Positions 59,941 through 63,087 of a DNA stretch of 64,000 bases are shown here, in pieces. The position numbers and the translations under genes are program-made. Numbering within the stretch: the stretch's first letter is position 1; every line of letters starts with the position of its first letter. The DNA is from Natrialba asiatica DSM 12278 (lineage in GTDB: Archaea > Halobacteriota > Halobacteria > Halobacteriales > Natrialbaceae), in the NCBI RefSeq assembly GCF_000337555.1, contig NZ_AOIO01000021.1:174430-238429 (forward strand), written 5' to 3'. A model generated the notes under the pieces. The model worked only from the letters and a program-made list of their open reading frames with translations. It was not told the origin of the DNA and made no database searches.

Positions 59941-60330
59941 TCAGGAGACGATGGCACGCCAGCCCGGTTCGTAACAGAGACCGTACGCCGCGGGGAGCGT
60001 AACGACCAACAGCGGCGGGACGAACAGGAGCATGCTGAACGGATCCGGCGGCGCGATGATCGACCCGACGGTGTACGCGGTACCGATACCGATACCGGCC
60101 GTGCCGATCAACCGTTCGCGTCGCGTGGCCGGGTCGCTCCGGTCGGGAAGCCGCCTCCTGTAGATGAGGTACGCAAGGGCGGCGATAGACAGGGTAAAGA
60201 AGGTGGCCAATCCCCAGGCACCTCCGTCCGCTCCGCGAGCGGCAGCATCGGCGCTGACGGCGTAGCTGAGACAGAGTCCAGCCAGCGGGAGCGCGAGGAG
60301 GAATACGAACCCAACCAGAACGAGGCCCAT
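59941..60330 (-). CDS. Membrane protein, hypothetical
   Basis: A 129-residue protein with four hydrophobic segments: about 3-26 (LVLVGFVFLLALPLAGLCLSY), 41-58, 76-93 and 97-118 (FSMLLFVPPLLVVTLPAAYGL). A basic loop (RRRLPDRSDPATRRERL) lies between the second and third, suggesting the usual inside-positive topology. No family is recognised. It lies between the mutase and the proteasome operon. Confidence 0.65.
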   Translation of the reverse strand: MGLVLVGFVFLLALPLAGLCLSYAVSADAAARGADGGAWGLATFFTLSIAALAYLIYRRRLPDRSDPATRRERLIGTAGIGIGTAYTVGSIIAPPDPFSMLLFVPPLLVVTLPAAYGLCYEPGWRAIVS

Positions 60331-60452
60331 AGTTTGTAACAGACACGGCGTTAATCGAATAATACTGTTTCGGTCACGGAGTGCGCAGACGCGGTCGTCC
60401 GTTCCAACTTGCGGCGAACCGCGAGCCGAGTTCGTACGCCCGCTGCGCTAAA

Positions 60453-60462
60453 ATATATTTTA
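60453..60462 (+). promoter_or_regulatory. AT-rich promoter element of the proteasome pair
   Basis: TATATTTTAG lies about 50 bases before the beta-subunit ATG, so a leader of about 20-25 bases is expected. A GAGG ribosome-binding site (60500-60503) stands just before the ATG. This differs from most genes here, which look leaderless. Confidence 0.5.
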
Positions 60463-60506
60463 GCTAACACCTATTCCGACGGGGACCCTCGATTCTCACG
60501 AGGATA

Positions 60507-61172
60507 ATGCACGGGACAGACTCCAACGGAATCGTTACGACAGGCACGACGACGGTCGGCCTCGTCGGCGCGGACGGCGTCGTCCTCGCAGCCGACAGCC
60601 GAGCGAGTCTCGGCGGCCGATTCGTCACGAACCGCACGGCCCGAAAGGTCGTCCCCGTCGACGACCGAACAGCGCTCACCTTCGCCGGCAGCGTCGGCGA
60701 CGCCCAGTCGTTCGTCCGCCGCCTCCGCGCCGAACTCGCGCTGTACGACATGGATCACGAACCCGGCGCGTCGGTCGACACCGCGGCGACGGTCGCCGCC
60801 GATCTCATCCGCCGCGAGGAAACTCCCCAACTCGAACTCGTTCTGGGCGGCGTCGTTCCCGATCCGACGGTCTACCAGATCGACCCCGCTGGCGGTGTCA
60901 TGGACGCTCCTATCGCCGCCAGCGGGAGCGGAATGCAACTCGCCTACGGCTACCTGGAGGACGCACACGACCCCGAACGGTCGGTTGCGGAACTCCGAGC
61001 CGTCGCCGCGATGGCCGTTCGAAACGCAACCGAGCGCGACACCGCGAGCGGCGACGGCATGACCATCGCGACGATTACCGCAGACGAACTCGAACGCGAG
61101 CAGTACGACGGCATCGAACGCGCCGTTTCCGCCGCTACCAGCCGGACCACAGACTCGGAGGTGGTGCGATGA
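60507..61172 (+). CDS. Proteasome beta-type catalytic subunit (paralogue)
   Basis: A 221-residue Ntn-hydrolase. The short propeptide ends at VTTG, leaving TTTVGLVGADGV with catalytic Thr14 (mature Thr1) ready for self-cleavage. Asp17 (in LAADSRAS) and a lysine near mature position 33-34 (TARKVV) are present, as is the ERDTASGDG block corresponding to Asp166 and Ser169. All catalytic residues are thus conserved, with a one-residue insertion before the lysine. It is shorter than main haloarchaeal PsmB. Its stop overlaps the alpha gene start (ATGA). Confidence 0.87.
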   Translation: MHGTDSNGIVTTGTTTVGLVGADGVVLAADSRASLGGRFVTNRTARKVVPVDDRTALTFAGSVGDAQSFVRRLRAELALYDMDHEPGASVDTAATVAADLIRREETPQLELVLGGVVPDPTVYQIDPAGGVMDAPIAASGSGMQLAYGYLEDAHDPERSVAELRAVAAMAVRNATERDTASGDGMTIATITADELEREQYDGIERAVSAATSRTTDSEVVR

Positions 61173-62020
61173 ACACGAGTTCACGTCAGCGGGCCTACGA
61201 TCGCGGGCACACGATCTTCTCTCCTGACGGCCGGCTCTACCAGGTCGAGTACGCCCGCGAGGCGGTCGAACGCGGCTCCCCGAGCGTCGGCGTCGTGACG
61301 AGCGAGGGCGTCGTCCTCGCGGCGCGCAAGCGCGTCCGGTCGCCGCTGCTCGAACCGGATTCGGTCGAGAAGATCCACCGCGTCGACGACCACCTCGCCG
61401 TCGCGACCGCCGGCCACGCCGCCGACGCGCGGCAACTCGTCGAGGCGGCCCGCAAGCGCTGCCAGCAGCACCGGCTGCAGTACGGCGAACCGATCGGCGT
61501 CTCGGTCCTCGCGAGCGACCTCGCGGATCACATCCAGGAGCAGACCCAGTCCGGCGGGACGCGACCCTACGGGGCTGCGGTGCTCGTCGGGGGTGTCGAT
61601 CCGGGTCCAGGCCCGAATTCCTCCCCCACACCCGACGACCGATCCGCCGACGAAACCGAGCGCGAGCGCGAGTCAGCCACCGAACGGACCGTCCAGCCAG
61701 CACTCTACGAGGTCGATCCGGGCGGCACGTTCTACGGCTGGCGCGGAACCGCCATCGGCGACGGCACCGCCGAGATCCGGTCGTTCCTCGAGACCGAACT
61801 CGACGGCGGCGACAGTACCGCCGCAACTCCCGATCTGACCCGGGATCGCGGGCTCTCGATTGCTCTCGACGCGCTCGCAACCACAGCCGCGGACGACCGC
61901 CCGATCTCAGCGTCGACAGTCACGGCCCGCGTTCTCGGACCGGAATCGGATTCGGGACAGTCGACCCCAGTCGGCGACGACGAACTCGAACGGGTACTCG
62001 CCGCGCTCGAATCGGACTGA
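61169..62020 (+). CDS. Proteasome alpha-type subunit (paralogue) with acidic insertion
   Basis: A 283-residue alpha-type subunit. The conserved gate-region helix is present as YDRGHTIFSPDGRLYQVEYA (about 10-29). SVEKIHRVDDHLAVATAGHAADAR (about 69-92, shown in part) holds the lysine of the activator-docking pocket. After AAVLVGGVD (near 147) comes an acidic, low-complexity insertion of about 30 residues (NSSPTPDDRSADETER) not found in typical alpha subunits. The strand ALYEVDPGGTFYGWRG then resumes the fold. No HbYX-accepting residues are visibly lost. It is co-translated with the beta subunit, suggesting an alternative 20S particle. Confidence 0.85.
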   Translation: MNTSSRQRAYDRGHTIFSPDGRLYQVEYAREAVERGSPSVGVVTSEGVVLAARKRVRSPLLEPDSVEKIHRVDDHLAVATAGHAADARQLVEAARKRCQQHRLQYGEPIGVSVLASDLADHIQEQTQSGGTRPYGAAVLVGGVDPGPGPNSSPTPDDRSADETERERESATERTVQPALYEVDPGGTFYGWRGTAIGDGTAEIRSFLETELDGGDSTAATPDLTRDRGLSIALDALATTAADDRPISASTVTARVLGPESDSGQSTPVGDDELERVLAALESD

Positions 62021-62025
62021 GCGGG

Positions 62026-63087
62026 TCACTTCGCGGTCTCCGCCTCTTTCGCCGATTCTGCCGTCTCTGCCGTTTCCGTCCCGTCCGACGATGGTGCCGT
62101 CTCCGACGACGCCCGCTGCGTATCGACCACCGCGACCTGTTCGTCGACGTACAACGCGAGCACCGAGTCGTCGAGTTCAACCACGACGCGGACGGCGAGC
62201 GGGTCCTCGGAGAGCACCGCCTCGGCCCACTCGTGGCCGACGTTCCAGATCGGGCGGTCGCGCACGTCCCGGTCGTGATCGTCGTAGAACGAGACGACGG
62301 CCGGGTGCGAGAGCAACGAGAGTGCGACGGGCGCACGCAGCGTCATCCCGCAGCGCGAACAGCTGAACTCGGCCTGGACGTGGTCGGTGTGCTCGGCTGG
62401 AAGCAAGTCTTCGGTCGACGACGAGAGCGTCGCGAGCCGAGCATCGACCGCGCCGCTGCAGTCGGGACAGACGCCGTCGCGCATGAGCGAGAGCCGGTGT
62501 CTGTGGTGGCGGTCGAAGGCGGCCGGAAACGCCGCGCCGTGGGAGTCGAGCCCGGCGGGCGGAAAGCCGAGCCGAAGGAGCCGTCGGTCGCAGTGCCCGC
62601 AGCTCACCGTTACTCTGTTATCGGTCGCCTGCGCCGTCAGCGCCGCCCGGCCACAGAACGGACAGTCGTCGTCGAGTTCGGTCGGCGGATGATCGACCCG
62701 TTGGGTGTACGTTCCGGTGGCGATCGCTCGCGCGATCCGCTCGCCGGCGTAGGTGAGTTCGTAGCCCTCGGACTCCGTTTCGCCGTTCCACGCCTCGTCT
62801 CCGGCCTCCACCTTTCGGAGGTACGGCCCGACGAGTTCGTCCAAGTGATAGGCGAACCCGGCGGTGGTGTCGACCTCGGAGGCGTCGAAGAGTGCCGAGA
62901 AGGTGGGCGTCGAAGGCGTGGCTTCAGTGGAGTCAGTATCGTTCCCATCGCCGAACTCGAGCATCGTCTCGAGAATCCCCATCCGGATCTCGTTGCCGAG
63001 CGCCTGGAAGGCGTCGCTCGGGTCTGAGACGCGGTCGCTGGGCTCGGGAGAAGCGGTCGGTAATTCCTCTCCGTCCTCTGCGGACAT
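62026..63087 (-). CDS. Winged-helix regulator with C-terminal zinc ribbons
   Basis: A 353-residue protein. An ArsR-like winged helix lies at about 22-130 (DAFQALGNEIRMGILETMLE, then FDASEVDTTAGFAYHLDELV, then YELTYAGERIARAIATGTYT). Three cysteine pairs follow: DDCPFCGRAAL / VSCGHCDRRL, GVCPDCSGAV and EFSCSRCGMTL, suggesting two zinc ribbons. The C-terminal part includes WNVGHEWAEAVLSEDPLAVR and ends in an Ala/Glu/Thr tail. It is common in haloarchaea; a DNA-binding, metal- or nucleic-acid-responsive role is likely but not defined. It is convergent with the proteasome alpha gene (6 bases apart). Confidence 0.8.
   Translation of the reverse strand: MSAEDGEELPTASPEPSDRVSDPSDAFQALGNEIRMGILETMLEFGDGNDTDSTEATPSTPTFSALFDASEVDTTAGFAYHLDELVGPYLRKVEAGDEAWNGETESEGYELTYAGERIARAIATGTYTQRVDHPPTELDDDCPFCGRAALTAQATDNRVTVSCGHCDRRLLRLGFPPAGLDSHGAAFPAAFDRHHRHRLSLMRDGVCPDCSGAVDARLATLSSSTEDLLPAEHTDHVQAEFSCSRCGMTLRAPVALSLLSHPAVVSFYDDHDRDVRDRPIWNVGHEWAEAVLSEDPLAVRVVVELDDSVLALYVDEQVAVVDTQRASSETAPSSDGTETAETAESAKEAETAK

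Follow-up and report, generated by a model that had tools for sequence, protein, structure and literature searches.

In the 64,000-nucleotide stretch of Natrialba asiatica DSM 12278 DNA analysed here (the window), a gene for a proteasome beta subunit runs directly into a gene for an alpha subunit, which raises the question whether this pair encodes the housekeeping proteasome or a second one, and what would set a second one to work. More broadly, the pair bears on the question why some archaea maintain more than one proteasome subtype. The beta gene (60507-61172, plus strand; 221 aa) and the alpha gene (61169-62020, plus strand; 283 aa) share the letters ATGA, in which the 3' end of the former overlaps the start of the latter. 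Both products match PF00227 above the Pfam cut-off (1e-43 for beta and 3e-47 for alpha), and alpha also matches PF10584, the alpha N-terminal signature. The assignments were further based on NCBIfam, alignments and trees and, for alpha, on a predicted structure model, which matched solved alpha subunits and thus has the proteasome fold. ORFs, Pfam and alignment therefore agree with the initial annotation, which had described a beta subunit with intact catalytic residues overlapping an alpha subunit. The compact operon that it proposed holds for these two genes, but not beyond them, as the gene upstream of the pair is divergent and the gene downstream is convergent. The upstream neighbour (59941-60330, minus strand) is small and has a sub-threshold match to DUF7534; L056 is the one other locus in which a relative of it was seen next to the module.

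The genome, 4.40 Mb and 99.8% complete, contains a canonical psmA (C30:3473) and a canonical psmB (C30:39525), which are unlinked, lie at separate loci away from the pair, and are both of the ordinary haloarchaeal type. This excludes the housekeeping reading, and the pair in the window is thus a second, non-housekeeping one. Both of its subunits score below the NCBIfam equivalog cut-offs (181 versus 224 bits for beta with TIGR03634, and 236 versus 287 bits for alpha with TIGR03633), and neither was placed in a canonical clade. The alpha subunits of beta-alpha pairs from several families form a single clade (99/92 support) apart from the canonical alphas, and the second beta falls outside the clade (98/92) that unites the canonical betas with those of pairs in alpha-beta order; the betas of beta-alpha pairs do not form one clade under outgroup rooting. 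In the sample of non-haloarchaeal genomes, each has essentially a single alpha and a single beta. Within the genus, beta identity is 94% for N. taiwanensis and N. aegyptia, and 65% for N. hulunbeirensis. These intact, non-canonical genes occur alongside the canonical ones, and together with the placement of both subunits in the trees this supports the alternative 20S particle suggested previously.

The beta subunit has the Gly-Thr cleavage site, and T1, D17, K33, S129, D166 and S169 (T. acidophilum numbering) are all present and invariant in the alignments. The subunit is indeed short, as had been noted, mainly because its propeptide comprises only 13 aa ahead of T1, but the mature domain has its full length. 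A one-residue insertion before the active-site lysine had been put forward as a special clue, but the canonical beta of this genome has it as well; the extra residue before Lys33 is general in haloarchaeal betas and absent only from the non-haloarchaeal outgroups in the alignment, and was therefore rejected as a mark of the second beta. A difference does exist at position 45, which we take to be an S1-pocket position with a role in cleavage preference: it is Phe in 17 of 17 betas of the Natrialbaceae clade, the one in the window included, and Met, Leu or Ile in canonical betas. This is suggestive of a somewhat different cleavage preference, and not more than suggestive. In alpha, the YDR gating motif and the activator-pocket lysine (Y10, D11, R12 and K68) are invariant in 65 alphas.

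The initial annotation had also reported an acidic insertion of roughly 30 residues in alpha, and had proposed altered gating or partner binding through it. The long loop is there, comprising 34 residues after GGVD (residues 145-178; 61601-61702, plus strand) where the genome's canonical alpha has about 5, but it is only mildly acidic (8 D/E, 4 K/R and 12 G/S/P of 34). In the structure model it forms a hairpin loop between two strands and is predicted to be disordered (pLDDT about 50-58). Within Natrialba its composition ranges from mixed-charge acidic (net -4, -9, -8) to the non-acidic loops of two related species, one Gly/Ser-rich (-1) and the other Lys/Arg-rich (+6). The loop is much shorter in most orthologs, the long version being a Natrialba feature, and a long loop of other sequence occurs in L060. 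With a net charge that varies between -9 and +6 among Natrialba species, the loop is unlikely to have a conserved role in gating or partner binding, the more so as the YDR motif and pocket lysine are invariant while the loop is hypervariable in length and charge. We rejected the insertion as a conserved functional device; its behaviour fits a tolerated variable surface loop.

A dedicated activator was sought among 35 Natrialbaceae genomes. Two PAN copies were present in 34 of the 35, with or without the pair, and one genome had a third, partial match; no extra PAN goes with the pair, and a dedicated PAN was rejected. Therefore, the ordinary activators probably serve the second proteasome.

What does go with the pair is the convergent gene downstream (62026-63087, minus strand). 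Its product combines a winged-helix domain (DUF7347, E 5e-20) with a zinc-ribbon-like domain (DUF7351, E 6e-51), both above the Pfam cut-offs, and is a candidate dedicated regulator of the operon on the grounds of domain content, co-occurrence, adjacency and monophyly. Four Cys pairs of the DUF7351 domain are invariant in the alignment, and it is conjectural that these cysteines bind zinc and possibly sense redox state or metals. A fold search with the medium-confidence model of the regulator gave no useful match, and a search of the open-access literature found no paper naming DUF7347 or DUF7351. When 20-kb regions around the pair were compared, this family recurred beside it in otherwise different surroundings, and no other regulator co-occurred in these neighbourhoods. 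Among the 35 Natrialbaceae genomes, an ortholog (190 bits or more) is present in 15 of 15 with the pair, adjacent each time, and in 0 of 20 without it, where the best score was 140 bits.

The search was extended by profile to 286 Halobacteriales genomes, one per species, with gene calls in related loci made by a simple codon-score method and checked by tblastn. It returned 61 regulator orthologs above a clear score gap. The sampled genomes carry several DUF7347-DUF7351 paralogs. Of the 61 orthologs, 60 are no more than about 4 kb from a beta of the second-pair kind, and the remaining one (G058) is about 12 kb from it on one contig. At the site, beta-alpha is present in 56 of the 61 genomes and beta alone in five, all of family f5. 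As linked copies went into the first profile, an independent test comes only from the genomes outside it, and there 34 of 34 conformed, as against 0 of 4 controls from below the score gap. The proteasome-linked regulators lie on one side of a branch that separates them from the paralogs, as a distinct subgroup (SH-aLRT 99). The distances of alpha, beta and regulator correlate (r 0.76-0.82), to which shared species history contributes. The regulator gene is thus inherited together with the beta-alpha pair.

Two further observations concern the layout of these loci. In L044, L050, L057, L058 and L230, an aminopeptidase P family gene (so named in the annotation of L230) lies just upstream of beta in the same direction, and is possibly a further peptidase of the module. 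In L080, L066, L077, L054, L047 and L060, alpha, and in some also the convergent regulator, terminates with ...AS-stop, which, judging from the translations only, looks like a palindromic GCTTCATGAAGC-like sequence where the two stop codons overlap.

Upstream of beta, a perfect 18-bp palindrome, GCTAAAATATATTTTAGC (60447-60464, without strand), lies over a TATA-like region and is a candidate operator; it is its own only match in the whole genome at up to 3 mismatches. It overlaps an extended conserved 22-bp element, CTAAAATATATTTTAGCTAACA (60448-60469, plus strand), 37 bp before the beta ATG, identified by its conservation and by genome counts. Majority-base conservation of the element is 96% in 46 non-redundant loci, compared to 45% and 51% in the flanks. 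At up to 2 mismatches, it was found in 53 of the 286 genomes, usually once each, and a reversed control pattern in none of the 286. Nearly all sites (52 of 54) directly precede a beta of the second-pair kind, and the spacing to the beta ATG is 28-31 bp in 54 of 64 loci (some from the same genome), or else 37-38 bp. The palindromic element is therefore conserved and nearly fixed in its spacing, and it hardly ever occurs anywhere but ahead of this beta. Some copies of the module have a degenerate or undetected one. Slightly further upstream, an TTCGTACGCC box (60431-60440, plus strand), possibly an upstream promoter element, recurs by eye in many Natrialbaceae upstream regions and was not seen by eye in other families. 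The initial annotation had missed both this promoter element and the regulator that is conserved along with the pair, and these two features are the best support for calling the second proteasome dedicated.

With these data, we put the probability at roughly 70% that the locus is a haloarchaeal alternative 20S module, in which a second beta and a second alpha are expressed from one promoter and accompanied by a dedicated convergent DUF7347-DUF7351 regulator. The palindrome could alternatively be read by another conserved factor, such as a special TBP/TFB or a global regulator, with the linked HTH protein acting elsewhere, perhaps on the particle itself as its adaptor or activator. Consistent with this, and also with the module reading, is family f12, where the pair and the element are kept but the convergent protein is a short, DUF7347-only one, the winged helix alone. 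Most DUF7351 paralogs also lack a similar upstream site: none was found in 24 tested, and a single related site occurs in G186. However, one would expect many sites for a global regulator whereas there is usually one per genome, and no other regulator accompanies the pair in the neighbourhoods compared, so that we regard this explanation as quite improbable.

The site in G186, one of the two stray ones, is a related palindromic element with 2 mismatches; about 110 bp separate it from the paralogous DUF7347-DUF7351 gene that follows (L289 2869-3981, G186:C3). It hints that the wider family may read related operators. The regulator gene in the window has no copy of the element, as a search allowing up to 3 mismatches gave only the one site in the genome, and autoregulation through the same element was rejected for this reason.

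The trio of beta, alpha and regulator stays together in varied genomic surroundings, including a plasmid of Halomontanus rarus, where the order is aminopeptidase P, beta, alpha and an 'ArsR family' regulator whose domains we confirmed; this counts in favour of the module. The changing contexts, and the grouping of some f1 copies with those of other families in the alpha, beta and regulator trees alike, would also fit a mobile module for which the 22-bp element served in recombination or integration and not as an operator. Yet such a role hardly agrees with an element that is usually single-copy, has no counterpart at the other end of the module, and keeps a nearly fixed distance to the beta ATG, which makes it the least credible of the explanations, with a very small chance of being right.

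In family f5 (L210, L211, L212, L215 and L217), the regulator is still found with the second beta, and so is the element in a weaker form (3-5 mismatches), but the alpha partner lies 8-13 kb away, or 122 kb in G269. In these five genomes, the element was found neither before the distant second alpha nor at the canonical genes tested. In f5, the catalytic subunit may be the only one that is swapped.

This separation of beta and alpha counts for another explanation, in which the second subunits are ordinary paralogs that mix with the canonical ones into hetero-particles, the regulator serves other genes, and the element is simply a strong promoter. There is a precedent in Haloferax volcanii, where 20S subtypes containing alpha1 or alpha2 differ in subunit composition and the alpha2 protein rises in stationary phase (PMC2910475). 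Nevertheless, a whole beta-alpha pair has been retained across families together with one regulator clade, and a near-invariant palindrome of 22 bp, usually present once, exceeds a generic TATA box, so that we consider mixing of ordinary paralogs unlikely, though more plausible than the two explanations above.

On the reading that we prefer, the alternative proteasome is controlled, and probably repressed, by the neighbouring regulator. As a dimer, the regulator would bind to the palindrome and so cover the TATA region, and would, most simply, repress the operon until a signal releases it, perhaps metal or redox, sensed through its cysteines. The second subunits would then form their own or mixed 20S particles, which would work with the ordinary PAN/Cdc48 activators and might cut with a somewhat different preference, given Phe instead of Met, Leu or Ile at position 45 of the S1 pocket. 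The genes, their co-occurrence and adjacency and the conservation of the element are observed, whereas the binding, the sign of the regulation, the signal, the assembly and the cleavage preference are all inferred. Because the regulator travels with the pair and the promoter sequence is nearly unchanging, the data suggest that the second proteasome may be a spare one that is switched on under special conditions. A regulator and operator travelling with one subtype across families provide a direct handle on the question of why subtypes are kept. If true, this would give a first function to part of the DUF7347-DUF7351 family, and the regulator would, as far as we know, be the first archaeal transcription factor dedicated to a proteasome.

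That Natrialba has a second linked pair is already known. A 2012 report on Natrialba magadii describes a second linked operon, Nmag_0515-0514, besides a separate alpha and beta elsewhere (Nmag_3313 and Nmag_3351), the same arrangement in the same genus; its passages on these genes mention no neighbouring regulator, promoter element or spread across haloarchaeal families (PMC3403918). The open-access literature yielded no expression data for Nmag_0514/0515. H. volcanii is likewise a haloarchaeon with more than one proteasome subtype, growth-phase dependent in that organism, but it has a second alpha only and a single beta, whereas Natrialba has a whole second pair (PMC2910475). Other haloarchaea have a second linked pair in alpha-beta order, for example on a plasmid of Natrinema thermotolerans (CP031304.1). 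These pairs differ in their reversed gene order, in their place in the tree and in lacking the element, and in the 20-kb regions compared the DUF7347-DUF7351 neighbour was absent from them and from solo subunits. In three Natrialbaceae loci (L046, L059 and L231; CP031304.1 154576-165169), one of them the N. thermotolerans plasmid, such an alpha-beta pair lies directly before gyrB-gyrA, again with neither this neighbour nor the element. In eukaryotes, the immunoproteasome is built with alternative catalytic subunits, and in yeast, Rpn4 is a transcription factor for proteasome genes. The regulation of the haloarchaeal module is not homologous to these systems, and the likeness is one of analogy only. 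We give about even odds to the broader proposition that a one-operon transcription factor with a near-invariant operator controls an alternative 20S proteasome in many haloarchaeal families, and that this proteasome, with an altered cleavage preference, is an archaeal parallel to inducible proteasome subtypes that arose independently.
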